Origin: Cristatella mucedo
Taxonomy: Eukaryota; Bryozoa; Phylactolaemata; Cristatellidae
DNA length: 64,000 bases
Reading direction: 5' to 3'
Assembly: GCA_009760855.2 (NCBI GenBank)
Contig: WPIO01000062.1
Location: 1,088,001 to 1,152,000, forward strand
Each line of letters opens with the position of its first letter. Positions within the stretch are counted from its first letter, which is position 1. The notes beneath the pieces were generated by a model that saw only the letters and a program-made list of their open reading frames with translations, did no database searches and had not been told where the DNA came from. The position numbers and the translations under genes were made by a program. This document shows positions 15,918-54,640 of this stretch, one piece after another.

Positions 15918-18140
15918 TATTAAACCACAAGCAAACTATTAATCACAGCATCTCCTAAAATTGGCTCAACAATAAATTGCTTAAATGAACTAACTCTTTA
16001 CAGTCCCGAATATTTAGTTGAATGCAAGCCAAAATATCGCCAAGCGATTACACTAAAATTCTCGAATCTTAAGAAATTACTCTGATAAGAGCGTGCAGAT
16101 ATGAACTTGAAATGGAAAAATAAATATTCATGCTATATCAATGTTCAATTCAGTATGGCCAACGAGTAATAATAATAATAGGCCGTTTATGTAACTCTCT
16201 AAGATAATTTGTAATGCCCTAAAAGAATTTTAATTCTATTCAAGAGTTTTATAACTCACTGCAAGACAATCGGTATCGTAAGTTTAGTGACATGTACTTT
16301 ATCAAGCATTCAAGAGCATGCAAGTATCACACTCAGGCCGGCATGCTAAAGTAAACAGGAATGCACCCATGGCCACCGGTTAGTGAGACTAGTGGCTAGT
16401 AACATGCACTGAATCATTCATGAGCACGCACGCAAAGCGCATCAGATCGAATAAAAAACAATGTCACTAGGGCAAAGGGAAAGCTGACTGGAAAAGATGC
16501 GTCCTGAATGATTAGTAATGTAGACGATATTTCTACGTAGCATTGCCGGCTTTACGACTTAAGCGCGAGGCGAGCACATTTTGTCCAGCAGCTTTGTTTT
16601 CTTTGTTGATCAGTGCAAGCGCGAGTCAAAGCGGCCAATGCTTCTCTGCTGCTATATAGAAATGAAGCTGCTAAACCACGCGACATTTAATTCACCTTTC
16701 GATTGCCACCGGGCGCCCACCGCGAGCGTATTCCTTCCTAGGCACGCTGGTAATAATAGCCCTGCCACATGACGGCCCCCGGCAGAATAATTTCGCGCAC
16801 GAGCGCGCTCGCAGAGAGCGTGCCGGGAGTATCGCGCTTCGTCGAGCGGGTTGCCCGCTAGCCTGGGACGTTGGCAGCGCCTGCATCGGCAGCGCGCGCG
16901 CGTCGTCGTCGTCGCTCGGGCTGTTTCCAATATTTTCTCCTGCGGCCGCCTTGTCGCAGCCTGCTCGCACAGAAAGTAGGTCGATGACGACGACGACGAA
17001 GAAGAAGAAGAACCTCGCGAGGTCCGCGGCCGCGGAGCGAGCGATAATTGGCCGACGAGTAGCCGGGTGAGTAGTCCAGCCGGCGGCGGCGTCCAGTGTC
17101 CAGCAAAGTCGAGCCCGTTTGCGAGGAGGGCGCCAAGTGGCACTAGCGAGAAGAGCGAGATCGTCGCACTTCTTCTACAGCAGCAGCCGCAATGGCGGCC
17201 GCGGCTGCGGCTGCGCAAGCAGACGGCGTCCTCGACGACTCAACTGCGCCAAGAGCGTCCGCTGGGAGCGAAGCGGCCAGCGGAGGAACGAGGCTACTGG
17301 CTGACATAGTAGTTGGAAAAGTTCTAGTTCCCGGTGGAGAGCGGCAGGTCGGTCGGGCAGCACGCGGTCGTCCAGATGGCGGCCGGAATGCACGGTATGC
17401 ACGAAATGCCGGTAGCACTGTTGGGACAGGGGGGGTGGTGATGACCGGCCGGTGCAGGTAGCGATTGGCTAATGTTCGGAGCACGCGGCGGTGCAAGCAG
17501 CGCTCGGCCTACTTTTCGGAGTCCCGAGTCTTGGCGCCCTTTCGCGTGAGCGCGGCGCGCGCGCTTCCGGGGGAAGGAGCGAGGTGCCAGGTCGGAGAGC
17601 CGCGCGCCGCCGCCGGGCGGGTGAGCGGCTCACCAGACGGGTACAGTTACCTCACCACCGAGGCCTCGCCTCGGCCGCTCGCTCCGCCCGCGGTCAAGGG
17701 ACCGCGAGCGAAGCGGAGCGGCGGCGGCGGAGTGACTAGAGATCCAAGTCGCGCCGCTCACCAGCCGTAGGCTCGTCGTGCTCAATTTAAAGCCGACGCA
17801 AGTACCGACTGAACTGCAGAGGGAGCCACTAGGATGAGCGAAGCCGCGACTACTTTACCAGCGAACCGCTGCTGGCCGCCATTACCTACCGAAAGCGACG
17901 ACTTGCAATGCGGTGTAAACGTGCGCTAAATTCGGTCAAGCCACCGCGGGCAGTATCATCTCAACTGACTAGGAAAGTGAATATACCTTATTCCGCCGTC
18001 TCCGAAACGCCTTTTAGCGGCAGAAGAGCCCTTACCGTAACGAAAGCCGCTTAGGCTTAGAGTGAGCTATTGAAAGCTCTCCTGTGTAACATCCATCTAG
18101 TCTCTGTGGCTTTGTGGCGTGGCAGACGGGAATATAGTAC
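15918..18140. repeat. Near-identical island of the flanking duplication (left copy)
   Basis: Matches 61,988-64,000. From about 16,260 to 16,770 the two copies are almost identical, far closer than the rest of the block. It includes an antisense LINE-like 3' UTR with (TAA)n (16,164-16,540), a CpG island (16,780-17,770) and a LINE-E tail (18,005-18,140). The right copy lacks about 210 bp (17,480-17,690). Confidence 0.7.
17192..17461 (+). other. Conserved open frame in CpG island, possible first exon
   Basis: ATG followed by an alanine run, then QADGVLDDSTAPRA. The matching right frame (63,241-63,447) keeps the same reading for about 65 codons with only in-frame length changes in the alanine run and one 6-bp insertion. 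The start loosely recalls opsin exon 1 (MAAAAAEASVELPDDS) but no transmembrane segment follows. A promoter island with chance frames is the main alternative. Confidence 0.25.
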
Positions 18141-21110: not shown

Positions 21111-22339
21111 CACGATTTAGCTGCCCCTGATACAGTCCGCATTGAAATCATGGTCACACATGTCTACTTCCGCTTTGAAATACTTTTCTCACTTCAATTC
21201 CCTCTTCGTTCCCCAATGACTCGAGAATGTTGGTGTTCAGTCATATTTGTCAAATGCTCTATCCCTTGAGTTAAAAATAGCCCACTATTAGTTGCATTTA
21301 AAGTAGGTGGAACATAAATTCACCATTCAACATCCTACATATCCAGCTATGAACCAGAATGCACCAGAATACACCAGAAGCGCAAGCTCCTGCTCTGATC
21401 CTGCAGCAGCTGGTTAAAGGTTCGGAGTTTCGCGGCTGTTGCTGCCGAATGCTGCAATCTCTGTGCAGGCGCCGTCGCGCACACATTTCGAGATGCGTTC
21501 GTCCTCTAGCATGGCAGAGGGAACTATCCACACAGCCGCGCCATCGAGGGGCTCCCAATCGGCACGAACGTCCGCCATCACTAAAGCTATCAACGTTAGC
21601 CTAGTCTAGGGGGCAGGGAGCGGTGGTAACATATACTCTTCAATGGACGTAAATCAAAATATTTTCTGGTAAAGCAGCATCGTCAAGTCATCGAACTCAT
21701 TCGCTAATTACTTGCTTCTCCCTCCTAAGTTTCAATAGAGCTGCAATGAATTTCTATTTTTTTTTTAAATTAAATACTTTTAATAATTAGGTAACGTGTA
21801 CATAACTATTTGGGAAATATCTAAGACATTTGTTTTCAAAATTGTTGCATGTAGTGTTTGCCGAGTCTTCGAGTCGTCCTCTCCTCTGGCTCGAGGCTGA
21901 AGGCCAAACGGCGGCAAGGTCGCCTTTACCCAAGACAAATTACCCCGCACCGCCTCGTGCGGCCCACAATCGCATCTCTAATGCACATCTTCCGGAAGAG
22001 CTTCCGATGGCTCCCTCGTATCATTATCAAAGACGTCAGGTCATCCGAATCTTTCAAGTCTGGGTAATTTGAATTTTAACGTAACCATGTTATGGGTTAA
22101 ACTCATTTATTTCTCTGATTTCTATCCAAATGTCTTATTATTATTTTCGAATAATGTCTTATGTTTGGGAGCCCGAGCGCGAACAACCCAAGTGCCTATG
22201 GCGACGGAGACTGCGCTGTCTCTATCATCTATCTTCGGCCAGGACCGCCAAAGACACCTGCACCCGGGGGCAGCAGTTGATTTAAAATCGCCTTTTTCAG
22301 GGCTAGTCGCCAGACCCCGAACGTCGCCGCCATTCGAAA
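21111..22339. other. No recognisable gene
   Basis: Only short frames on both strands, none recognised. AT-rich between 21,720 and 21,850. It is the last stretch before the opsin CpG island. Confidence 0.4.
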
Positions 22340-23128
22340 GGGCCGCGGCGGTGACTCGTCTCTCGACCGTGGCGTTCTGCGGCTGCACTGACTCGGCTGC
22401 TCACGCTTCTTCGGTCAAAGCTCGCCTGCCTTTGAGTGCTGAGCACCGCCAGGCGCCACTGCGCCAAGAGCGTCCGCTGGGAGCGAAGCGGCCAGCGGAG
22501 GAACGAGGCTACTGGCTGACATAGTAGTTGGAAAAGTTCTAGTTCCCGGCGGAGAGCGGCAGGTCGGTCGGGCAGCACGCGGTCGTCCAGATGGCGGCCG
22601 GAATGCACGGTATGCACGAAATGCCGGTAGCACTGTTGGGACGGGGGGGGGGTGGTGATGACCGGCCGGTGCAGGTAGCGATTGGCTAATGTTCGGAGCA
22701 CGCGGCGGTGCAAGCAGCGCTCGGCCTACTTTTCGGAGTCCCGAGTCTTGGCGCCCTTTCGCGTGAGCGCGGCGCGCGCGCTTCCGGGGGAAGGAGCGAG
22801 GTGCCAGGTCGGAGAGCCGCGCGCCGCCGCCGGGCGGGTGAGCGGCTCACCAGACGGGTACAGTTACCTCACCACCGAGGCCTCGCCTCGGCCGCTCGCT
22901 CCGCCCGCGGTCAAGGAACCGCGGGCTGAGCGGAGCAGTGGCGGAGTGACTAGAGATCCAAGTCGCACAGCTCACCAGCCGTAGGCTCGTCTTGCTCTAA
23001 TTAAGGGCCGCGGCGGTGACTCGTCTCTCGACCGTGGCGTTCTGCGGCTGCACTGACTCGGCTGCTCCAGCTTCTTCGGTCAGAGCTCGCCTGCCTTTGA
23101 GCGCTGAGCACCGCCAGGCGCGAAGACG
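22340..23128 (+). promoter_or_regulatory. CpG-rich 5' region of the opsin with a nested duplication
   Basis: GC- and CpG-rich sequence immediately upstream of the opsin start. A segment of about 115 bp (22,341-22,456) containing cgtggcgttctgcggctg is repeated almost exactly at 23,006-23,120, directly before the ATG. Between the two copies lies about 545 bp (22,459-23,000) nearly identical to 17,242-17,790. No convincing TATA box is seen; a dispersed CpG-type promoter is inferred. Confidence 0.45.
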
Positions 23129-23336
23129 ATGAAGATGGCGGCCGCCGCCGCCGAAGCCTCGGTGGAGCTTCCGGACGACTCGGCGAACGATGCAGTCGTC
23201 GCGGTTGCAGCGAATCTCACAGTCCCTTTTCTCCCAGCCGCTCAGTGGCCGAGCGAGCGGAGCGATGCAGTGAGGTTCTCGTCCCGACTCAGTCCCGCCG
23301 TCAGCACCATTCTCGGATCGTACCTAACAGCCATAG
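23129..23336 (+). CDS. Opsin exon 1 (extracellular N-terminus and first half of TM1)
   Basis: 208 nt from ATG, ending in phase 1 (one base, G, of codon 70) at a donor reading gtgagc. It encodes an alanine-rich start, an NLT glycosylation site and the outer half of TM1 ending in YLTAIG. The next base pair of either exon 2 completes a glycine codon. The start sits 22 bp after an in-frame TGA. The second methionine (codon 3) is a possible alternative start with a better context. It lies in a CpG-rich island that probably contains the promoter. Confidence 0.85.
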
Positions 23337-26300
23337 GTGAGCTTCCGGCGCGCCGATGAGATTCGTTCGTCCGCTCCTTCGATTCGCCGTCTCTCGTGAC
23401 AGCTCTTGCGAAACAGCTCCCTCCAAGAGGTGCAGCAACCGGCGCGGCGCTTCCGGCTTTTTCCGAGATTAAGTTTTCTTTGGGCGCTATAGAAATTGAT
23501 TATATAAGAATTATATAACCCGTGACCAGACCGGTGCCTTACACCAGGCGTTCACCACGAGCTTCTTGGCAGCTTTCCGAGCAGCCCCTAGCAGTTGGTG
23601 ATGCATTGGGATGCATGCACGCAGGAGTCGACGGGCTGCCAACAGGCTGCAAAGACTGCGATGGCGGCGGCAGATGGCGGCTTAATTTGCGACCGCACGG
23701 GTGTAGCCTGAGAATGTGTTCCATGGGTACTGGGCCATTTGGAGGCGATAGCCATACCTCGACCTTGCCTATTCTATACGAGCCGCCGTGCGGCCGCAGT
23801 GCGTCTCTTGCACCTAGGGCGACAGGTGGTTGACTTCGGCCCGAAGACGCTCACGCTAGTTGACGCTACGAAACCTGACGAGTCAGAGTAGATGAGTCGC
23901 AGGCGCCATTCGAGCCCCCGAAGCGGCCACTCCGGATCTTCGCTTCCGGTTTTGCGACCGCTCCTCTTTCTAGGAGTTTGCAGCTTGGCAATCAACTCGC
24001 TGAGCACCTCCTCGGCGCTCGGTCGACGGCGACTCCAGCTCAAGCCCGCCGAGCACTTCGTGCTGTGGCTCAACGTCACCGACATTGGCATGGTCGTGTT
24101 CACGTTTCCGTTCGCCATCGCTTCGTTTTTCGCTCGACGGTGGCTGTTTGACGGATCCGGTTCCTCGTCGTCGCAGATCTGCTAAGCGCTGGATTGGATG
24201 CTATGGAGCTTTTGTCTCGGTAGTTTAATACCGAGAGCCCTGGACGGCTAACCTAGAGGTTATTCGATCGTTTTTTCCCACTCAAACTAAACATTTTTGG
24301 CACCCAGTTCCCAGAGCAGATGCCCTCAGATTATTCTGTCTTAAAATTAGAAACGCCTCGCTTTACCAATATCTAGTAGTTCCTTGCGGATAAAAATGAC
24401 CGCAGTATTTGGCCATAAATTCTGTGTCAAGCCAAGCTTCGTATTATTATTACGGGCTTAAAATTCGTACATTGTGGCCGGAGAGCTTTTTAAATTAAAA
24501 GCAAACCGCGACAACCGAAGACCTGGCGCATCATCCAGAAGCAGCAGGCCGTGCGTGTCCCAGCAGGCCAAGTGAGTCCCCTCAGCAGCAGGCCGCTGCG
24601 TTCCCCAGCAGGCCGCCGCCGCCGGCTTGTCCCGCGAACCGCGAGCGGCTGTGGCTACGAGGTAGTTAAGTCGTCGCAACATCTCGCTGCGTCTGCTCTA
24701 CCGTCAGTCGCCGTTAGCGACGAGCTTCACTCGTTCGCAAACTGAGCGGCTTCCCGTGGGGGAGGGAGAATTCTAGGCTTTTGGAGCATATGCACTGAAG
24801 GCACGGTTGTAAAGGATTTGAGCTTAGTTGCATGCAAAGTTAAACGACTCTTGTCAGAAGAGGTGGTAGCAGGATGTGAAACCTGGTTTAGAAGTATCTC
24901 AGATAGGTACGCCGGCACCATAGAAAGGCCTAAAAGTGACAGACAGAATCAATGCGAATAAGCCACTTGATGTTAGCCAGTGCTAGTCGGCGAGAAGAGA
25001 TGTGACGTGGCAGCTCCGACATGTACGACAACCAGCCCTAGCTGAAGAGTTTCGCACCAACTGCGTAAGCGTCTTAGTGCACAGCCGGGGGACCTGCACG
25101 GAGAATTGCCGAAGTTGAAATGCCGGTTTGTCCCAAATGCACGGACTAACTTCGCTGCGGTAATCTCATCTAAGCAGGCCGGAAGTCATTCAGTATTGCG
25201 TAGCTGAAAATGGGTACGTTCAATTGTGAAGCTGACACTGCCATCCAGCGATCACTCATTTTGCTAGCCGAATGCCCATTCCTTGCAGAGGCTACAGGGG
25301 GTGTTCTGGCCGGCCCATTTTGAGGCACAGGCATTCGACTTTCTGGGTTACTAGGATAGCATGTAATTTTATGTAATGTTGAGGCGCCGACATTTGGCTT
25401 AGGCAGCGACATCTGGCTTAGGAGCAATAAAAGTCTCGCGGTTTAAAGATGCGATCCAGAATCGAAAGTGAGGCTGGACGGGTGGGCTGGTTGGGGAGCT
25501 CATTATGCAACGCAAAGGGAATGGCACCTGGTCTGCTGCTACCGCTTACCGCTGGTTCCCATGCCGAACGATCTTCAGCCAGTGGCGTAGCCAGAACTTT
25601 CAGATAGAAGGAAAGCCCTGCCGCCAGTTATAAATACATCGAAAGTCGCTGTCTTTTATTCGACACGTGAGCCTGTGGCTACGCGTAGATTGAAACCATG
25701 CGACGACGATCTCATTGCTCGTTGCATGCTTTCTTCCTTAAACGTACAGCAGCAGACGTCGTCGAGGTAGTGCACCGCCGTCGTCGTTCCAAGGCATGTC
25801 TTGCTTGATAAGTTGTAGCGCGCTGAGCGAGCAGCTCACGTTCGACGCCATTACGCTTCCCGGAGTCACTTATCCTGCCTGGCGGTCGGCGCGCGGGTAG
25901 TCGGTGCTCAGGGGTTTGAGCGAGCAGATGCTGCCTGCACACTATCTCTCTCGCTCGCCACTTCGCCCGTCTAGCCAAAATGGCCGACGCCGAGCCTGCG
26001 GGCGCGGCGCGCGCGTGTGTGGCTCGAGCGACAGCGGCAGTCGCGCCGGTGACGGCTCGAGGCGAGGCGACGGTGCGGCCAGCCAGCGACCGCGGCTCTG
26101 CGCCTAGCGCGTCGACAGCGACGAACGACGAAAATTCAAGAGACGCGCCGCCGCCGCCGCGTCAGGTCGCCAATAGCGAGGCGGTCGATGAGTGAGCGCT
26201 TTGAGCCCGGGCCGCGAGACTGCGACCTGAAGGCGGCGAAGTGCACGGCGGTTAAATAAAGGAAGAAAGGCGCAGCGGCGGCGGCGGCGGGCGGCGGCGG

Positions 26301-26389
26301 CGGGCGACGTATCGGGCTCGTCGGTCGCTCGCCGAGACCGATTAGCCGCCGCCGCCGCAGCCGCCCCCAGTCCCTCTTTTGCCGGCGCG

Positions 26390-26424
<35 letters not shown>

Positions 26425-28235
26425 TATATGCGCATGCGCGGGTCGCAGTCATTCGACCGGATATGCGGCGTGCGACAATACTAGGTACGCTCTGCGAGCT
26501 GTTGCAATTGAATACACGTTCGTCGCCGCTCCTCGCGGCTGCCACCGCTGCTTGACGACGAGGATGACGTTTTTTGTGTAGGGATTTTCAGCTTGGCAAT
26601 CAATTCACTGAGCATCTATTCGGCGCTCGGTCGGCAAAGAATCAAGCTCAAGCCCGTCGAGCACTTCATGCTGGCACTCAACATCGCCGACATGGGCATG
26701 GTCGTGTTCACGTTCCCGTTCGCTATTTCGTCATTTTTCGCTCGACGGTGGCTGTTCGGCGAAGCTAGTACGGTGCGGCAGCGAAGCGAAGCGCTGCGCC
26801 GCGACGCGTCGCTTCGCCTTTTTTATCGCTGCCCAACGAGCGTGAAGCGCTCCGGACAGCCGAGGTTTAAACAACAGTAGAAACCTTAACCTCGGGTTCG
26901 CGGCCGGATGGGGGTCATGGGGGTCAACTTCCCGCGTTCACCGCCTGCCGGAGTGCGGCAGCCCGCTGCGGCGGCGGCAGCCAGTTTAGCAGCGATGGGG
27001 GAGGAAGGGGAGAGAGAAAGAAGGCCGCTCTTCTCAGCGCCCCCGGCGCCTCTCCTAAATAAATAAATAAGTGCTAGCTGATTTAACAGCCTCTTTTGTA
27101 TAGCGACAGAAGAGCTTTTACGGCTATCACCACATCTTGCAGTGCCGATACAGGGTCGCCCACTGCAGGATTCGAGCCCACGACCTCGGGGCCGAGGTCG
27201 TGAAAAGCAACCGCCTTACCTAGTGAGCCATTACGGCTCACCGCCTCGAGCTGCGTATCCCCCGGCGTAGTGTAGTTAGTTATGACTCACGCAGCATTGC
27301 TACCGCGGCTAGTTTGCAAGCCTGCGGAGAGAGATCATTTACTGCTTGCTCATCGTCTTATTCTTGTTCCACTGCAGTGAGCAGCCGTCTCATTCCGTTG
27401 CGCTATAAAAATATGAACGCTTTTCCGATCGAGGCACGCACCAACTAGCGCACTGGCTGACTACGCCGTATGCACACCAGCGACGCCGGCCGCTCCTGTC
27501 TTAAGCCTGATTTAGACGGTGAGTCTTGCTTCCTACCAACTAGAGTCTAACTACAGTCTTCTAGTTTGTAGGAGTTTTAGACAGTAGTCTTGCTCTAAGT
27601 CTGGCTTTCTACTCGCTCCGCCCACGGAGCGTTCTTGGGATGGCAATAGCGTTTCTCTACGGCCAGGCTTTTCTAACGGAATTACCGGTAGAATGAAACC
27701 TGTCCGCTATAGTCTTTATCGCTCGCCGCCTCAAAATCTGATTCATATACCCCGAACTCAGTGTGTCCCATAAACAGGGACTCGCTAGGAACGCACCGAC
27801 GATTTCGCTGGTAAAGTCGTCCGCCATTTCTTGCTAAGCAACGCAGTAGGCGTGGTTACCTGCTGAGTCTTGGCTGAAAAAGTAGAACCGAGTGTGGCTA
27901 CTGAGTCTTCGTCGAGTCTCCCCTTAAGTCTGAACCACCTCCCGCGCTATTGGCGACGTTTACACCGAACACTCGAGTTGGTAGAAAGCAAGACTCACCG
28001 TCTAAACCAGGCTTTAGTTAAGTGCTCGCCTCTCGCGATATCCACCCAACCTTGTACCGTAGCTACGTCTGCCACGGCATGCCGAGCTAGAGTCAAGCTA
28101 GTGCCCGAAGTTTCCCGGCGCGACGCCATGCCAAACTCGGAACCATTAGCTGCAATATACCTCGCCTGAGGTCTGGGGGCAGGGAGTGGCTCGAGACGCT
28201 GTAACTCGGTGAGTCCGACCGCAGTTCAACCTTGC

Positions 28236-34300: not shown

Positions 34301-37300
34301 GTATACGTGCCAGCCTTTATCTAGTGTTTTTGAGACGACGGGTGAGCTGCCGAGACTCCCGTCATACTAGCATTTTAGACAGCGGAGGGAGCGCATGGCT
34401 GCGGTACCTCCCTTAGGGCTTCAGTACTCATTTTTCACGTCACACGAAGCGCCCGAGCGCCCGATGGTGTAGCCCCTTCACCACCCTTTGCAATTTTATG
34501 GCCGGCTTTTCGAGCGAAGTTACTCCTCTTAAATCGATTTAGAGAAGGCTCGAGGAGTCTTCCCAACATTATCGCCTTCTCTTTCAAAGACTGCCGCCGC
34601 TCAACTCGTGCATTCGGAGCTGAGCCACTGATAGCGATGTCCCTGCATTGTCGAGTTCTTATCTGAGCCTGTCTGAGTATGTCAACTTCCCTAGACTCCT
34701 GTTGCTGTCAGGGCGAACTGGAGTGCGGGAAGCTCACTTCCGACGATTCTCGCTCTCTTAAGGCGACTGCTTTTCGGCTGGCGAAACCCGCATTTGCTGA
34801 GACCTTGAGCAGCGAGGCGGGTCCTCCGAGATAAAAATGCAAGGCACTCGCTCCGCATCGTTCGCCCATCGGAAAGACGACCTCGACCTCGGCCGCTTTT
34901 CTTCGGCTCGAGCTTTGCACGGCGTTTGGCCGATGCAACGTGGCGCCGCCAGGTCGAAGACGCGAGCTGACCGGAGCGCCACTCCTCGCGTCCTCTCCTC
35001 TGATCTCGGTCGCGGAGCACGACGTGGCAGGAGCCAGCTTCGCAAGCGTCCACTCGCTCCGCTCTCGAAGACCTCGACGCGGTGGTCGCACGCGCCCTTC
35101 GCACGCCGCCGCCACCGAAACGAGATTACAGCTCGTTTACGGCTTGTTTTCTTTCCCAGGTTGCGCCGCAGTCGGCTTCCTGTCCTTCCTGTGGGGCATC
35201 GAGAATCTTATGATCGTGGTCATACTGGCTGCGACGCGCTTCGTCATCGTCTGCTATCCGCAGCGAGGTAAGAGATTGTCGGCCGCCGGGGCGCACCCAC
35301 CGGAAGACGACCGGCCAGGGAAGTGAGCGTCCGCCGGAGACCCGCGTTTGCCGTCCGCCGCGAGACGGCCGCTCGGCGAGAGCAGCGCCCCTGGCGTCCG
35401 CTGCGTACCCATTGGCCTAGCAGGCTCCGAATACCCAATCATCGGGTGCTCGAGCTTCTTTGAGCCGGGCAATGGCAGAGGCTCGGCAGAGACGCCGTTC
35501 GGCTCACGCGACGGCCCTCAGTGACTTCCTCAGGGTATAGCAGCAGCACTGTGCCTGATTCAAACGGCATTATGTCATATCCAGTCTCGCAGTCACTGCC
35601 TCCAGGTGTCTCCTGCCACTGCCTGCAGCCTCGTTTCTGGCCGACGGCCGTCACTGCTCCGCTGCCGCTGAAGTCGTTAGAGCTGTTGCTGGTCTGCGCC
35701 GTGAATTCTTTTGCTTGGTCATTCTCCTTTCTTCGACGCGCGTGCCCCAGTGCCAATGTAGCGTACAATTTATTCGACGTTTAGCTTCACTTACACGCAA
35801 AGCTTAGATAGCACCTGGCTCAGGCAAAGTGCCGCATCAAGTGCACCGAAGCAGCTGCTGCATCAGATGCATCGACGCAGTGCCACATCACATGCATTGA
35901 TGTGGCCGACCGAGTCCTACGCTGAGGCAGTCAAAGTGCACAGGCCACATTGCTTAGTGATGCCTGTTCATGCATGCTGTTTATCAAGCATGATATTACT
36001 CACCATTCAATCGCATTTCCTTTTGCAGCAAATGTAAATCGCCTAGAAAGATATTGAGTTCTCTGGATGGGCTTTATCAAGTGCATTATTGTTATTATGC
36101 ATACTGTGGTCCTTCGAGGAAAGTCGCTCCTTCTTGTGCAATACCCTCAGCTAACTACCGTTGGATACTTGGCTCTAGTTCGGCCACTAATTAGGAAAGA
36201 TCAACGAAATTTGAGTTACGCGCTAATTTTACAACATTTTACTAGTTTATTTCAGATTTCGGTTAGATCATTGTTGATATACATGTCTATAGTTGCTCTG
36301 AAAACCAAGCTTCTGGACGTTTGATAATATGGGCAGCAGAAAATATCTAACAATAATCTGAGCTAGCGAAATGTGGCTCGAGTAGAGCTGAAAGTGCATT
36401 TCAAATTTTACTATGATCCGTTTATTATTGGCCAGGTTATGGAATTTAAAGGGTACAAGGCTACACAGAAATGAAGTTTTTAAGAGTCACAAGCATGCAC
36501 CTCAACAGCTTCACGCATACACCTCGATTTATCAAGGTTTAGAAATTTGGCACAAGAAACGTTTATACTGCCGAGATCTCTAAATTTTTTATTGTAGATA
36601 TTTTGCTTCCAGTTACATCCGGGTTAGACATAGTTCGTTTAAACCTGTTTTCCTTTTATATGGAAGTCGTTAGAACTTCGGATCCCAAGTTCAACATGTT
36701 TGTCTTTTGAAAGCTACCTTAAACAAGTATTCATTTTTGGACCTATTTTATAAGTATTTATTTTTCTTGACATTCCGCCTTGTTGTGCGTGATTATAGGG
36801 TACTTTTCATCTATTGATAATCATCTTTTTCAGCCTGTATGCAGTGCCTAGAAAGAGATTCAGTTATCTCTTGGTTCGCTAAGTAAATGTATTATTATTA
36901 TTTTTGATCTACTCTCTCAAATCAGGGTTCCTAACAAAAAGCCCAAGGCACAGCAAGCGCCGTTACCACCCTCTACATCCGACAGCCTCTAGCTTCTATG
37001 GGCGGTGTCCTTTGCAACGCGATAGCAATCTCCGGTACGGATGGCCAGCATTACAATGACGAGCGCCAGCGGTGGGCTCGCCGGTTATATTTTGGCAATG
37101 CTGGGTGCGGTGCAGCGTTTGCTCTGCATGCGTCATGTGCTTACTGCCCATCAGGGCTCGAGAATGCAGTCCGCCGGGTTTATTGGCAGCTATGTTATCT
37201 CTGCTCTCCGGACTGCAGGGTGAGCGAGGCCTCTCCTGATTGGTCGCGTTGTTGTGGCTCCGTCTCGGTAGTTCTGCTCTCGAAGCGCCCAGACCGCTGT

Positions 37301-38922
37301 GCTATTGACTCAGTTCTCAGCCCCAAAAAGGAACAACGAGTAAAGCACCGTGCTTCTTTTTAAGATAAAGCCCGTCGGTGCGACGTATCCAGCAACAGGG
37401 CTTGTAGAACGCTTAAGTGGCTGGTGACTTCTGTTCATAGTGCATACGGTGCAGCAACATTTTCGGCGCGGCAATGGCTGCTTTGAAGAGAAAGAGATGA
37501 TAAGCTGGCGTCGCGTCCATTCTAATTTGCAGAGTCCCGCCTGAACTTACGAACGACTGTCGGCGTTACAGTAGCGTCGGTGATCTACAGTATATTATGG
37601 TCCGCCATGCCCCTGGGCATTTGGGGATCGTACGCCCCCGAACCTTACGGGACAAGTTGCACGATCGACTGGGCAAACTCGGACAACTTTTCGTACGTGC
37701 TCTCCTCTTACGTGTTCGTTTTTCTCATTCCCTTTGTCGTCATCATCGGATGCTACGCCAGCATACACCGCGTGACGGTACGATCTTCCAAATCGGCTCA
37801 CACAGCGTCTTCAGGACGGCATTTCACTCCGTCTAAACCCATAGGCGGAGCGGCTAAGGTGACGGCTCGAAAGCGACTTCCTACTGCCAAGGTAACAGTG
37901 TGAATAGCTAAAAGGTGCGCGACCGAAAGACTAGCTTTTCACAATTCCAATAGTGCGACCTAGCAAACAAACCCCCTTCCTAGTGGGTCCCTTCAAATTA
38001 GGGTTGGAGCGAGGAGTGTACCAATTGTCGTTTGATCAATCCGCAGGCTCACAGCATCGTGCGTACAGAGCTTCTGCTTTATTTTATCATCGGCGTTGCC
38101 TTGGCTGCCAGGCATCGTGATTCTTTCAACTGTATTGTTAGTGGCTGTCATAAGGTACGATTACGTCGAGTCATTCTGATACGAATAGGAAGCCAGCAAC
38201 CGAGGGGTGCACTATACATACAGGTGTGCCATAGCGGTTCCCGCTGCATCCGAAGTCTAGCGATACGGCCATTCTGCTGCCACCACAAGTAGCCAGTCCG
38301 GGAAAGGTCAAGGTTAAGCGCGTATCAATTTTGCGTTACGCCTATTCTGTATGTTTATCGTTCGTTTTTTCTTACTTGCGAGCATATTAAGGTTGCTGAC
38401 TGGTCAATGACATTATTTCCTACGGAGGACTTTAGAGCGCTTGGAGGACAGCGAATGACGCATCCCTATTATCTAGCTAAGCGAAAGGGTCGGCTCGCCC
38501 TCACTTAGTGGCACTATCTCAAGTCTCTTTCGCTACAGCTCGGCATACTGCTCAGCGCGTCGTACTTCGTCTGCTGGTTCCCGTATGCGGTCGTCAGTTT
38601 CTGGGCTGCAGTGGCAGACGCGTCGACGCTGCCGCCTATTGCCACCGCTCTGCCGGTGATGCTCGCCAAGACGTCGGTGCTGTTCAATCCCATCCTGTAC
38701 CTACTGACGAACAGACGCTTCCGTCAGAGACTGGTGCAAATCAGTTCACCCCATCGCAGCAGCTCGCTGACGGAGACGAGTCAGAGCTCAAAGTCACGAG
38801 TCAAATCTCATGGCACGGGGCAGCAAGAGCGTTCCCAACCGCTAGGAGGCTACTCCAACAACACGACGCCCCCTGGCGGTTCGTCAGATTTGCCGCCGAT
38901 CGAGCCGCCCATGAGTATCTGA
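23129..38922 (+). CDS. Opsin, neuropsin/Opn5-like (five-exon gene, 424 aa)
   Basis: Seven-transmembrane retinal-binding GPCR of the photoreceptor membrane. Five exons join in frame with GT-AG borders (phases 1, 1, 1, 0) into 425 codons including stop. In order: N-glycosylation site NLT at 29-31, TM1 about 55-78, LKPAEH intracellular loop 92-97, TM2 with D106, C133 at the top of TM3, TRF 157-159 at the (D/E)RY position, PEPYGTSC 203-210 (E204 equals bovine E181, C210 pairs with C133), TM5 about 222-245, CWFP 309-312 in TM6, retinal lysine K341 in LAKTS, NPILY 347-351, NRR 355-357, then a Ser/Thr-rich tail to 424. An in-frame TGA at 23,105-23,107 supports the ATG at 23,129. Motifs LKPAE, PEPxGTSCT.DW and PYAVVS.W are most like vertebrate Opn5; peropsin or another group-4 opsin is the alternative. 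Class call is strong, subfamily moderate. No frameshift or internal stop is seen. Confidence 0.9.
23337..23973 (+). other. Opsin intron 1
   Basis: 637 bp bounded by gtgagc and ctttctag. GC-rich in the second half. Open frames here do not resemble known proteins and are interpreted as compositional. Confidence 0.75.
23974..24159 (+). CDS. Opsin exon 2, version a (end of TM1, TM2, entry to TM3)
   Basis: 186 nt, phase 1 in and phase 1 out, with acceptor ctctttctag. It encodes the inner half of TM1, the LKPAEH loop, TM2 (LWLNVTDIGMVVFTFPF, with the conserved Asp) and RRWLF before TM3. The donor is chosen at tccg|gttcct because it matches the length of exon 2b exactly and places C133 of exon 3 in register with the opsin family. 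That donor is weak by consensus. The reading frame stays open to a stop at 24,181-24,183, so a read-through isoform would be truncated. Confidence 0.8.
24735..25435 (-). pseudogene. Decayed CR1/L2-like LINE fragment, reverse orientation
   Basis: Antisense of the C-terminal reverse transcriptase region: complements of PSKDL, SLTFRSLHS and LHWLPVKQ-like sequence can be traced in order. Lies in the intron between exons 2a and 2b. Confidence 0.6.
25980..26195 (+). other. GC-rich open frame (71 codons) in a CpG island upstream of exon 2b
   Basis: ATG in a good context (aaaATGg) after a pyrimidine-rich run (tctctctcgctcgccac). It encodes an Ala/Arg/Pro-rich peptide ending QVANSEAVDE and stop. No hydrophobic segment, so it cannot replace the TM1 half from exon 1. 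It may be a separate promoter with an unrelated short frame, or purely compositional. No homolog recognised. Confidence 0.2.
26389..26430. repeat. (TA)n microsatellite
   Basis: About 40 bp of TA repeats with one G interruption, about 150 bp before exon 2b. Confidence 0.95.
26582..26767 (+). CDS. Opsin exon 2, version b (alternative copy of exon 2a)
   Basis: 186 nt, same phases and length as exon 2a, 2,608 bp downstream, acceptor tttttgtgtag, donor gcta|gtacgg. It encodes the same segment with 44 of 62 residues identical to 2a. Its TM2 reads LALNIADMGM, closer to the usual opsin LALxxAD than 2a (LWLNVTD). No second TM1 first-half exon was found between 24,160 and 26,581, so 2b most simply splices to exon 1. 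Splicing to exon 3 keeps frame. The surrounding intron sequence does not resemble that of 2a, so the duplication is old and both frames have been kept open. Confidence 0.8.
27057..27239 (-). mobile_element. tRNA-derived SINE, family A
   Basis: Reverse orientation with (AAAT)n tail, B box complement GATTCGAGCCCA and A box complement ACCTAGTGAGCCA. Lies in the opsin intron 2b-3. Confidence 0.8.
27504..28013. mobile_element. MITE with 35-bp class terminal inverted repeats and TTA target duplication
   Basis: Left end AGCCTGATTTAGACGGTGAG and right end complementary (read inward AGCCTGGTTTAGACGGTGAG), the match extending to CTACCAAC. Flanked by TTA at 27,501-27,503 and TTA at 28,014-28,016. A degenerate subterminal copy (TTTTAGACAGTAGTCTTGCT) sits near 27,574. 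No transposase. The 3-bp TTA duplication is typical of PIF/Harbinger elements. Confidence 0.8.
28226..28306. repeat. (CT)n microsatellite
   Basis: About 80 bp of CT repeats followed by ccctccctat. Confidence 0.97.
28600..29080. repeat. Unclassified dispersed repeat, copy 1
   Basis: Part (about 28,600-28,870) matches 36,470-36,730 in inverse orientation, for example the complement of GGAAGTCGTTAGAACTTC. Another part (about 29,020-29,080) matches 36,300-36,430 in the same orientation (TCCAGGACGTTTGAT versus TTCTGGACGTTTGAT). Family unknown. Confidence 0.45.
31455..31605 (+). pseudogene. Reverse transcriptase fragment of a second LINE lineage
   Basis: In frame from 31,494: VTDGVPQGSILGPLLFSIYT, then QPLRKVIKAHEIGY. 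This is the motif B' region of a non-LTR reverse transcriptase. It differs from the local family (GVPQGSVPGPVLF) and abuts an antisense LINE from 31,610. Confidence 0.75.
31610..32945 (-). pseudogene. Decayed CR1/L2-like LINE, reverse orientation
   Basis: Antisense of the ORF C-terminus at 31,640-31,860, through the LHWLPVKQ region, the SDLSLDD region near 32,130, the YADD region near 32,400-32,420 and the motif A/B area to about 32,640, then less conserved sequence to about 32,945. No open frame of useful length. It starts directly against a sense fragment. Confidence 0.65.
33881..34035 (-). mobile_element. tRNA-like SINE, family B
   Basis: Reverse orientation: A-rich tail, tttgtataacactcc hairpin arm, B-box-like GGGCTTGAGCTCAAG and AGGGCGAGCACCTTAACC head. 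Confidence 0.65.
35160..35267 (+). CDS. Opsin exon 3 (TM3 and start of second intracellular loop)
   Basis: 108 nt, phase 1 to phase 1, acceptor ttttctttcccag and strong donor gtaagag. It encodes C133, then TM3 from GFLSFLWGIENL to TRFVIVCYPQR. Aligned without gaps to bovine rhodopsin from C110, position 113 is Val, position 121 is Gly and the ERY triplet is TRF. It lies at the 3' edge of a GC-rich stretch (34,700-35,500) where several longer open frames are byproducts of base composition. Confidence 0.9.
35935..36096 (+). mobile_element. CR1/L2-like LINE 3' tail
   Basis: 3' UTR sequence then TGTAAATCGCCTAGAAAG...GAGTTCTCTGGATGGGCTT hairpin and ATTATTGTTATTAT. Solitary tail, so severely 5'-truncated. 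Confidence 0.75.
36300..36730. repeat. Unclassified dispersed repeat, copy 2
   Basis: Partner of 28,600-29,080, with a rearranged order of segments. Located in opsin intron 3. Confidence 0.45.
36830..36905 (+). mobile_element. CR1/L2-like LINE 3' tail
   Basis: Degraded hairpin (CCTAGAAAGAGATTCAGTTA) followed by ATTATTATTATT. Confidence 0.6.
37533..37891 (+). CDS. Opsin exon 4 (TM4, extracellular loop 2, TM5, third intracellular loop)
   Basis: 359 nt, phase 1 to phase 0, acceptor tctaatttgcag, donor aag|gtaaca. It encodes TM4 (about 175-198), the loop SYAPEPYGTSCTIDW carrying E204 and C210, TM5 (about 222-245) and a long basic third loop with SSK, ARKR and PTAK. The loop motif is the best subfamily evidence, because the same PEPxGTSCT.DW pattern is typical of Opn5-type opsins. 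Read-through of the donor meets a stop after two further codons. Confidence 0.9.
37892..38508 (+). other. Opsin intron 4
   Basis: 617 bp between donor gtaaca and acceptor cacttag. No recognisable repeat. It contains a short hydrophobic open stretch near 38,050-38,157 that I do not consider an exon. Confidence 0.7.
38509..38922 (+). CDS. Opsin exon 5 (TM6, TM7 with retinal lysine, C-terminal tail)
   Basis: 414 nt including the stop. The acceptor ctcgccctcacttag is preferred for its pyrimidine tract; a second in-phase acceptor 15 bp downstream (ctcaag) would drop five residues. It encodes TM6 with CWFP, TM7 with LAKTSVLFNPILY (lysine codon at 38,668-38,670), NRRFRQRL at the helix-8 start, then a tail rich in Ser/Thr (RSSSLTETSQSSKS), a plausible kinase/arrestin target. 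The usual cysteine palmitoylation site after helix 8 is not seen. Confidence 0.92.
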   Translation, partial: WHYLKSLSLQLGILLSASYFVCWFPYAVVSFWAAVADASTLPPIATALPVMLAKTSVLFNPILYLLTNRRFRQRLVQISSPHRSSSLTETSQSSKSRVKSHGTGQQERSQPLGGYSNNTTPPGGSSDLPPIEPPMSI

Positions 38923-40855: not shown

Positions 40856-42400
40856 ACACTGGAACGGGTCGTGGCGGACCAGCTGGACTCACATATTGAA
40901 ACCTCACACCTTGCTAATAAGTTCCAGTCTGGCTTTAGAGTTAATCACTCCACAGAGTCAGCATAGCTTAGGGTATACAACGACCTACTTAGGAATGCAG
41001 ACATGGGTAGAGTGTCTCTGCTTGTTTTGCTCGATATTTCGGCTGCTTTTGATACCATCGATCACAAAATTCTTCTAGAGCGCCTCTCATCTCGCCTGGG
41101 CATCACTGGCACTGCTCTGCAGTGGTTCAGGTCCTATCTCAGTGGGAGACTCCAGAGTACTGACATGAATGGACAAAGATCATCTGAGGTACCTCTTAAA
41201 TATGGGGTACCTCAGGGCTCCGTGCCAGGCCCAGTTCTTTTCACGGTTTACACTCTCCCTCTTGCTGATGTGATTGCCAAGCACAATCTAGGCTTTCACT
41301 TCTATGCGGATGACACTCAGTTGTACCTTTGCTTTGATCCCTCCCACCCTTCGAGCACCTCAAATTCTCTCAACTCACTTGCTGCATGTATTGATGACAT
41401 CCGCACATGGATGGCAGAAAATTTTCTAAAACTAAACGATGATAAAGCTAACTTACTAGTTATGTGCAAACCCAGTGTGATTCAGAAATTGGAAAGGCTG
41501 ATGCTCAAGATTGGCTCTGCCAGCATATATCCAGTTGAATCAGCTCGAAATCTAGGTGTCATATTCCAAAGCGACCTCTCGTTAGACGACCATATCAGCT
41601 CCACAGTCAAATCTGCCTATTTTTTGCTTCGTAAAATTGCTAAAATTCGGGCTTGTTCAGATAAGGATACCACGTCTAAGTTGGTCCATGCATTCGTGAC
41701 ATCCCGTCTCGACTTCTGCAACTTACTGCTTACTGGCCTACCAGCATGTGCGATCACGCGATTGCTGCTTGTGCAAAACTCTGCAGGTAGACTTGTCTGT
41801 CGTGAGCGTCGCAGTTGCCACATCACACCACGTCTCGCCGACCTGCACTGGCTACCAGTCAAGCAACGGATTGACTTCAAGGTTTTGTCGCTCACTTTTA
41901 GGTCCCTTCATTCTTTGGCTCCAGCATATCTCTCAGGCGTACTCCCCCACCAGGCCAAGTATCCTACCCCCCCCCCCCCCGCTTTTTGGAATCCAAGACT
42001 CTACCAATGCCTCGTACAAACCTCAAAGCCTTTGGAGACCGTGCATTTAGTTCCTATGCTCCCAAAGCCAGGAACTCCTTCCCGACTTGCGTCAGAACAT
42101 CCCCTGACTTGACCACATTTATACAGAACTTAAAAACACACCTATTTAGGACAGCATTTATGCCCTGTGATTCGTCCTTGATGTGCTTATGCGTGCTGAC
42201 ACTGTGCATGCTCCCAATAACCACACTTGCAGGCTGACCCTGTCCATGTCACCCCTAACCATGTTATTCATGTTGTTTATCAAGAATGATATTACTCACC
42301 ATTCAATTGGGTTTCTTTTTGCAGCAGATGTAAAGCGCCTAGAAAGAGATTGAGTTCTCTGAGGGCGCTTTATCAAGTGCATTGTCATTATTATTATTAT
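40853..42400 (+). mobile_element. CR1/L2-like LINE, best-preserved copy (5'-truncated)
   Basis: Starts inside ORF2 at the LERVVADQL region and ends with the 3' hairpin (TGTAAAGCGCCTAGAAAG, GAGGGCGCTTTATC) and ATTATTATTATT. It has one in-frame TAG near 40,965 before the main open frame and a frameshift at a C-run at about 41,968-41,981. No target site duplication was identified because the 5' side abuts a TA repeat. Confidence 0.85.
41003..42112 (+). pseudogene. Reverse transcriptase ORF of the LINE (369 codons, defective)
   Basis: Copies element RNA into DNA at a nicked target in live relatives. Seen: motif A LLVLLDISAAFDTIDH (residues 5-20), motif B' GVPQGSVPGPVLF (about 68-80), catalytic motif C FYADDTQLYL (about 100-109), then thumb and C-terminal region with SDLSLDD, TSRLDFCN and LHWLPVKQRIDFKVLSLTFR. 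The palm catalytic aspartates are intact. The endonuclease is missing. A C-run shifts the frame near codon 326, so the last part of this frame is out of register and the true C-terminus continues in the frame at 41,986-42,237. Confidence 0.85.
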
Positions 42401-53295: not shown

Positions 53296-54640
53296 TAATT
53301 TAATAATAATAATAATAATAATTCACTTGATAAAGCGCCCTCAGAGAACTCAATCTCTCTCTAGGCGCTTTACATTTGCTGTAAAGTGAAATGCAATTGA
53401 ATGGTAAGTAAAATCATGCTTGAAAAACAAACGAGATGAATAATATGATTAGGGGTGACATGCACAGGGTCAGCATGCAAATTTGGTTAGTGGCAGCATG
53501 CACAGTGTCACGCATAAGCACATCAAAGACGAATCACGGGGACCCACTTAATGCTATCCTAAATAGGTTTGTTTTTAGGTTCCTTTTAAATGTGGTCAGG
53601 TCAGGGGATGTTTTGACGCAGGTCGGGAGGGAGTTCCAGGCTTTGGGAGCTTATGAACTAAATGCACGGTCTCCAAAGGATTTAAGGTTTGTATGAGGTA
53701 TTTCTAGACTGTTGGATTCCGAGAAGCGGGTGGTACGATGCTTGGCCTGATGGGGTAGTATATCTGACAGATAGGCTGGAGCCATAGAATGAAGGGACCT
53801 AAAAGTGAGCGACAAAACCTTGAAGTCAATCCGTTGCTTGACTGGTAGCCAGTGCAGGTCGGCGAGAAGTGGAGTAATGTGGCAACTGCGACGCTCACGA
53901 CAGACAAGCCTACCTGCAGAGTTTTGCACAAGCTGCAATCGCCTGATCGCACATGCTAGTAGGCCAGTAAGCAGTGAGTTGCAGAAGTCGAGACGGGATG
54001 TCACGAATGCATTAACTAACTTGGACGTGGTATCCTTATCTAAACAAGCCCGAATTTTAGCAATGTTATGAAGCTGAAAATAGGCGGATTTGACTGTGGA
54101 GCTGATACGGTCGTCTAACGAGAGGTCGCTTTGGAATATGACACCTAGATTCCGAGCTGATTCGACAGGATATATGCTGGCAGAGCCAATTTTGAGCGTC
54201 AGCCTTTCCAATCTCTGGATCACACTGGGTTTTCCCATAACTAGTAAGTTAGTTTTGTCATCGTTTAGTTTTAGAAAATTTGCTGCCATCCATGTGCGGA
54301 TGTCATCAATGCATGCAGCAAGTGAGTTGAGAGAATATGAGGTGCTCGAAGGCTGGGAGGGATCAAAGCAAAGGTACAACTGAGTGTCATCCGCATAGAA
54401 GTGAAAGCCTAGATTGTGCTTGGCAATCACATCAGCAAGAGGGAGAGTTTAAACCGTGAAAAGAACCGGACCTAGCACTGAGCCCTGAGGTACTCCATAT
54501 TTCAGAGGTACTTCAGATGATCTTTGTCCATTCACGTCAACACTCTGGAGTCTCCCACTGAGATAGGACCTGAACTACTGCAGAGCAGTGCCAGTGATGC
54601 CCAGGCGAGATGAGAGGCGCTCTAGAAGAACTTTTAAAAA
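53296..54640 (-). pseudogene. CR1/L2-like LINE with 259-codon reverse transcriptase frame, reverse orientation
   Basis: (TAA)n at 53,301-53,323, 3' hairpin and UTR, then the minus frame 53,651-54,430 from AKHNLGFHFYADDTQLYL through SDLSLDDRISS and LHWLPVKQRID to FGDRAFSS. The motif B' region follows upstream but is separated by a stop (GVPQGS complement near 54,490). 5'-truncated near 54,640. Closest to the 40,853-42,400 copy. Confidence 0.85.

Follow-up and report, generated by a model that had tools for sequence, protein, structure and literature searches.

An opsin gene with two copies of exon 2 in the bryozoan Cristatella mucedo: a probable product of fusion between tandem opsin genes

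An opsin gene with a doubled exon 2

A stretch of 64,000 nucleotides (nt) of the Cristatella mucedo genome (assembly GCA_009760855.2, WPIO01000062.1, positions 1,088,001 to 1,152,000), called the window below, contains an opsin gene in which exon 2 is present in two versions, 2a and 2b. This gene, B, is the middle one of three tandem copies, A, B and C. Gene A has a single exon 2 of the 2b type, and its DNA homology to B begins just past the end of 2a. The best supported account, taking in jointly the exon pair, an exon 1 foreign to A, the breakpoint after 2a and the poor splice donor of 2a, is a recent fusion of two tandem genes. From the sequence, a fusion origin of the pair is very probable. 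Given fusion, it is likely that 2a is skipped, and the main product is expected to be 1B-2b-3-4-5. Taken whole, the reading that we favor, with some reserve, is that gene B is a chimeric opsin that arose where a tandem segmental duplication created a new junction, with 2a mostly skipped. The earlier note on the window had presented 2a and 2b as an interchangeable exon set. A by-product of gene fusion explains the pair better, given the very weak donor of 2a, the unlike intron starts after 2a in B and C, and an intact 2a frame that would follow if 2a once served as exon 2 in a gene of its own.

The physical description of the pair has held up. Both exons are 186 nt long, run from phase 1 to phase 1 and are open in that frame, with AG directly before and GT directly after. 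Either one joins exon 1 to exon 3 in frame, with 1-2a-3-4-5 and 1-2b-3-4-5 each encoding 414 amino acids and C133 falling in register in both forms; inclusion of both copies keeps the frame and gives 476 amino acids. The two exons are identical at 152 of 186 nt. Their residue agreement, put at 44 of 62 in the earlier note, comes to 45 of 62 when the Gly at the shared junction is counted and 44 of 61 when it is not. In searches of the 572-Mb genome with 2b and with 2a, the five exon-2 copies of the array come out on top at E 4.4e-23 or lower, and the next relatives follow at 1.3e-8 and 2.4e-6. Chance similarity of 2a and 2b was rejected because the match is far too strong. Exons 1, 3, 4 and 5 were located through splice sites and homology, and exon 1B has an in-frame stop upstream of its ATG. 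No second copy of exon 1, 3, 4 or 5 appears inside the window at E below 0.3, which rules out a second whole opsin gene there. Compared over 400 nt each way, the sequences flanking 2a do not resemble those flanking 2b, with local alignment scores of 15 upstream and 10 downstream against shuffle means of 14.5 and 12.1. The 40 nt just downstream score 9 against a shuffle mean of 6.9, a value reached in 26 of 200 shuffles.

Three tandem genes and a homology breakpoint

The window lies within contig C581 of the assembly, which was read beyond the window, over positions 1,020,001-1,200,000, for analysis of the array. Exons of the 2b type are found on C581 at 1,064,483, 1,114,584 (window) and 1,163,036, and exons of the 2a type at 1,111,979 (window) and 1,159,450. 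Gene A, on the left, consists of its own exon 1, the single 2b-type exon 2, and exons 3-5. Gene B, in the window, and gene C, on the right, consist of exons 1B, 2a, 2b, 3, 4 and 5. A genome search with exon 1B returned B, C and one weak match (44% at the protein level, E 0.47) at C581 1,057,267, 7 kb upstream of the 2b exon of A. Because its frame ends in FASRLSVTVNSVLASYLTAVG at GTGAGT, we take this match to be gene A's own exon 1, 1A. Exon 1A has no DNA-level match to 1B in the array alignments. Beyond the copies in B and C, the genome searches gave no further exon 1B or 2a. Exon 2a is open in both genes, and the pair predates the B-C gene duplication, since both carry 2a and 2b with open frames. 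Genes A and B differ at 7 of 186 nt in 2b, 6 of 108 in exon 3 and 27 of 359 in exon 4.

Homology to A stops sharply at the junction. The A-B alignment, in which pieces of 60 nt or longer were kept, starts at window position 24,186, 27 nt past the end of 2a, and the A-C alignment starts 24 nt past the 2a of C. Upstream of the breakpoint, A shares with B and C only repeats at the DNA level. Downstream, the main aligned block of the 2a-2b intron covers 1,869 nt at 95.2% identity to A. Similarity between 2a and 2b in the DNA alignment breaks off 11 nt short of the 2a donor. Outside the genes, the A-B spacer matches the B-C spacer at 16,556 of 21,501 nt. In the 22,001 nt to the left of A, 376 and 234 nt match the two spacers. 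To the right of C, in a comparison that kept pieces of 150 nt or longer, the spacer match resumes with internal gaps and is followed by a truncated opsin exon 5, running from about NPILY to the tail; the broken exon is preceded by a stretch that also matches spacer repeats. Of the two putative parent genes, A stands whole on the left, and a right parent would be represented by a broken exon-5 tail only.

The order of events that we infer begins with two opsin genes in tandem, A (1A-2b-3-4-5) and X (1B-2a onward). A duplication running from intron 1 of A to just past exon 2 of X would have placed the 1B-2a of X in front of the 2b-3-4-5 of A. The fused unit would then have been copied again to give B and C, with A surviving whole at the left end and X decaying at the right. 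A breakpoint that coincided, or nearly so, with the end of 2a would have left 2a without a good donor, with the consequence that 2a is mostly skipped and 1B is joined to 2b. The outcome would be one working opsin with the N-terminus of X and the body of A. Since 2a would formerly have been exon 2 of another gene, its open frame is not evidence of present alternative use. The piece of exon 5 to the right of C is a candidate for the remains of X, whose first exons would have been lost, as no third 1B or 2a was found. The features are collected in Table 1.

Table 1. Exons, intron and putative breakpoint zone of gene B, and the second copies of exons 1B and 2a in gene C. A slash marks the exon-intron boundary.
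Feature	Location	Strand	Description
Exon 1B	window 23129..23336	+	Start codon, extracellular N-terminus, first half of transmembrane segment (TM) 1; ends in phase 1 at tag/GTGAGC; strong donor, open frame
Exon 2a	window 23974..24159	+	Second half of TM1, TM2, loop before TM3; very weak donor ccg/GTTCCT; putative relic of another opsin gene
Putative fusion-breakpoint zone	window 24149..24186	+	2a/2b DNA alignment stops at 24,148; gene A intron homology starts at 24,186
2a-2b intron	window 24186..26581	+	Apparently from intron 1 of an A-type gene; several aligned blocks of ~77-95% identity
Exon 2b	window 26582..26767	+	Exon 2 common to genes A, B and C; donor cta/GTACGG (A: cag/GTACGG)
Exon 3	window 35160..35267	+	Cys133, TM3; phase 1 to 1
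Exon 4	window 37533..37891	+	TM4, extracellular loop 2, TM5, cytoplasmic loop 3
Exon 5	window 38539..38922	+	TM6, TM7 with presumed retinal lysine K331, C-terminal tail, stop
Gene C exon 1B	C581:1158083		Second copy of exon 1B
Gene C exon 2a	C581:1159445		Second copy of 2a

Splice sites of the two exons

Donors were scored by donor-site weights and expressed as percentiles among all GT in the window. By this measure the donor of 2a stands at the 51st percentile and that of 2b at the 85th, and the donors of exons 1, 3 and 4 stand at the 98th or higher. A wider comparison took in 28 donors, 14 from genes A, B and C and 14 from exon 2 of other loci of the family in this genome (three on C453, one on C77 and ten on C441). 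The weakest of the 28 is 2a of B, the second weakest is 2a of C, and the next two are 2b of B and C; 2b of gene A ranks with the strong donors. Positions +3 and +4 of the 2a donor are T and C in B as well as in C. The last base of 2b is G in A, as in exon 2 of 13 of the 14 other loci, and A in B and C. All 14 of those loci read with acceptor and donor in phase 1, each with a donor stronger than that of 2a. The intron after 2a begins GTTCCTCGTCGTCGCAG in B versus GTTCGCGGTCGCAG in C, and the first 20 nt after 2b are identical. A U12-type donor for 2a was rejected by eye against the consensus, and inspection for another in-frame donor after 2a turned up poor GT sites only.

On the acceptor side, AG is present at both exons, and the tract before it is 76% pyrimidine for 2a and 53% for 2b. 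The acceptors proved to be identical in every gene copy that owns the exon, with the 20 nt preceding 2a shared by B and C and the 20 nt preceding 2b by all three genes.

Within gene B, the 34 differences between 2a and 2b are concentrated at the end of the exon, with 6 in the last 11 nt versus 28 in the other 175 (0.006 by resampling, for a stretch of 11 nt chosen after seeing where the 2a-2b alignment ended). In two other pairings, the last 11 nt hold 6 of 36 and 5 of 34 differences, and 2a of C against 2b of A gives 5 differences in 11. The WLFG motif has Asp (WLFD) in both 2a copies; the Gly is kept in 16 of the 17 other exon copies.

Ages and selection

The synonymous divergence (dS) of 2a from 2b is 0.36-0.50, versus 0.048 between A and B (exons 2b-5) and 0.036 between B and C (exons 1 and 2b-5). 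From these values, the split of 2a from 2b long precedes the formation of the array and would be about ten times older. For exon 1A against 1B, dS is 1.1, measured on 21 codons with 18 synonymous sites.

Selection was judged by omega, the ratio of nonsynonymous to synonymous rates. A single omega over all branches of exon 2 is 0.33, and a value of 1 is rejected (twice the log-likelihood difference, 2 delta lnL, is 11.4). The stem separating 2a from 2b also has an omega of 0.33, with 2 delta lnL of 6.6 against 1 and of 1.45 against 0.55, roughly the value expected if one side were free; the latter is not rejected. The stem is silent on the function of 2a since the fusion because it spans time spent in separate genes. 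On the tips, an omega of 1 is not rejected for 2a (1.3) and not quite for 2b (3.6), in a comparison with little power: since the B-C split there have been 4 nonsynonymous and 3 synonymous changes in 2a and 3 of each in 2b. The rest of the gene apart from 2a has had 25 nonsynonymous and 11 synonymous changes between B and C, an omega of 0.79, and the A-B omega is 1.22. The array as a whole is little constrained at this depth. In simulation, 7 neutral changes leave a 2a-like exon free of stops in 75% of cases, and for that reason the open frame of 2a says little.

Identity as an opsin

The identification of the gene as an opsin is solid. The Pfam family 7tm_1 (PF00001) matches the 2b form at 129.7 bits and the 2a form at 122.9. 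The best matches among PDB chains, which were the relatives considered from outside this genome, are opsins, and the best of these is at E 4.3e-33 with 2b and 7.7e-31 with 2a. The 2b form thus outscores the 2a form in both comparisons. K331 falls opposite the lysine of both Kumopsin1 and bovine rhodopsin; we take it to be the retinal-binding lysine of TM7. The disulphide cysteines of Kumopsin1, at the top of TM3 and in loop 2, have their counterparts in C133, present in both forms, and C210. Jumping-spider Kumopsin1, bovine rhodopsin and squid rhodopsin score alike, at 115-118 bits, and favor no one opsin class. A protein database search with the 1-2b protein scored 8000 candidates, none of them at E <= 1e-5. 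At the DRY position at the end of TM3 (window 35,160-35,267), B and C have TRF and A has MRF, both unusual for an opsin.

Weighing the alternatives

Several points weigh against the fusion reading. A GT stands at the exact family donor position after 2a in both B and C, which by our own estimate would happen by luck about once in 16. The 2a frame has been kept in both genes. Exon 1 dS, at 1.1, exceeds the value of about 0.4 for exon 2, whereas under one fusion event the two should be of the same age; the mismatch has to be put down to gene conversion in exon 2 or to sampling error. No alignment could be made of the introns next to 2a and 2b, though the exon dS is only about 0.4. Gene X has not been found whole, the genome searches having given 1B and 2a in B and C only. 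Finally, the 2b donor is weak in B and C (cta/GTACGG) and strong in A (cag/GTACGG), as if a choice were being balanced. This weakening of the one good competitor, only in the genes that own 2a, is the best argument for regulated choice. It would be expected under the view, put forward in the earlier note, that the exons are mutually exclusive, with B and C making both 1-2a-3-4-5 and 1-2b-3-4-5. The two products would be unlike in TM1, TM2 and the loop preceding TM3, and the view is compatible with either origin of the pair, fusion or exon duplication. Equal length and phase, homology, frames open in both genes and the match of both forms to 7tm_1 agree with that view, as does the low omega over the exon-2 branches, where 1 is rejected. 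However, T at +3 and C at +4 of the 2a donor in both genes and the differing intron starts fit it poorly, constraint on the stem is equally to be expected of exons in separate genes, with 0.55 not rejected, and the few changes on the 2a tips leave an omega of 1 standing, at little power. We consider exclusive use unlikely. We are a little more doubtful that the fusion itself made an exclusive TM1-TM2 exon pair in one step, giving one opsin tuned by splicing between segments of two former genes, with the weakened 2b donor in B and C as a trace of the new balance.

A quite improbable variant is that the pair is old within one gene and that A is derived, having lost 1B and 2a and gained exon 1A from another opsin. 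Recombination would have occurred at the same point as in the fusion model, and the old divergence of 2a from 2b would likewise follow. This variant needs an extra exon duplication, and a search for a second exon 2 beside the 14 other family loci, with matches to E 1, came up empty. Also, the sequence to the left of A is unique, and the repeated unit starts inside intron 1 of A, as for the left parent of a tandem duplication. There is only a slim chance that 2a is included and read through its weak donor, so reducing expression as a poison exon or a terminal exon. If the donor is left unused, the frame meets a stop 8 codons on in B (window 24,183-24,185) and at the matching place in C, 7 codons on, giving a protein of 139 residues in B and 138 in C. 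Against this, a weak donor usually leads to skipping of the exon. Equally slim is the chance of an assembly error or of unmerged haplotypes, with B and C as alleles set in tandem. The B-C dS of 0.036 would fit the allelic divergence known from some marine animals. The units align only piecewise and are broken by numerous insertions and deletions, a single 2.5-Mb contig holds all three copies, and the presence of 2a plus 2b within one copy would be left unexplained. There is a precedent in an early psyllid assembly, where, according to the available part of the report, false exon duplicates passed for alternative exons (PMC11659978).

Comparison with known systems

As here, the primate red and green opsin genes are tandem duplicates that exchange parts. 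Red/green hybrid genes arise by unequal crossing over and retain one copy of each exon. Here, unlike in those hybrids, the junction is out of register, resulting in two exons 2. Gene conversion between the red and green opsins is covered in the accessible sections of PMC3449122, which also describe chimeric gene duplicates, in which duplications ignore gene boundaries and the derived gene is built from parts of two sources. In the present case, unlike the usual chimeric duplicate, both parents would be opsins, and an exon is doubled with no foreign exon added. The tandem duplicated exons used in turn that are described in the portion available of PMC9741552 are, as here, homologous and frame-keeping, unlike the present copies in arising by duplication within one gene; 2a and 2b seemingly come from two. 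Opsin, rhodopsin and G-protein-coupled receptor (GPCR) are not mentioned in that text.

Among the literature searched, the nearest receptor case is the ecdysis triggering hormone receptor, a seven-transmembrane receptor with alternative exons 4A and 4B for membrane segments. As far as the excerpted text goes, these are 3' exons that run from TM4 through the C-terminus, and each isoform proved functional when tested (PMC5572281). In contrast, the exon here is internal and covers TM1-TM2, and any use of 2a is hypothetical. That alternative splicing could make opsin isoforms is raised as a suggestion only in the passages available of PMC11993263. No opsin with exclusive exons is evident among the literature matches listed, as judged by titles and the starts of abstracts and mostly without subscription papers, nor in the available parts of PMC7570057, PMC12853126, PMC5572281, PMC4244043, PMC3449122, PMC11993263, PMC6361134 and PMC11659978; the terms sought are not present in the available part of PMC6191289.

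If 2a is a relic, the array is a clear, recent case of a tandem-gene fusion yielding an apparent alternative-exon pair, and it cautions against reading alternative use from matching length and phase and an open frame alone. If 2a is used, an exclusive pair would have been born in a single step, and the gene would be, to our knowledge, the first known opsin with TM1-TM2 exchanged by splicing. The array includes its own control in gene A, with its single exon 2.

Other features of the array and the opsin family

The gene belongs to a large opsin family in this genome, whose members stand mostly in tandem. The 14 exon-2 loci outside the array comprise the ten on C441 (2,609,647-2,960,524), the three on C453 (2,885,718-2,979,442) and the one on C77 (5,214,850-5,218,574), with loci L006 and L008, which overlap L034 and L035, counted once. 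When exon-2 and exon-5 matches were paired by eye on strand and position, 13 of these loci had an exon 5 ahead of the following exon 2. At C441 2,870,302, the remaining exon 2 has no exon 5 after it on its strand, and no exon 2 was found for the exons 5 at C441 2,702,727 and 2,722,083. Family matches were listed to E <= 1, a threshold at which a more diverged second exon 2 could be missed.

Exon 5 of gene C (C581:1,172,422-1,172,808) has an in-frame stop in the C-terminal tail, after TM7. The first 69 residues of exon 5, TM6-TM7, are identical in A, B and C (C581:1,082,011, window 38,539-38,745 and C581:1,172,422, respectively). Over the first 210 nt of this exon, A and B differ at one nucleotide; intron blocks are only ~77-95% identical. 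The near identity of TM6-TM7 may reflect recent gene conversion or very strong constraint. The 119 nt directly upstream of exon 1 occur twice, at window 22,338-22,456 and 23,003-23,121, with 96.6% identity, possibly as a duplicated promoter or 5' leader. Open reverse-transcriptase-like frames, presumably of the non-LTR (long terminal repeat) retrotransposon type, lie at window 40,967-42,109 and 53,654-54,448, and repeat pieces related to them were seen by eye beside the exon-5 remnant to the right of C.

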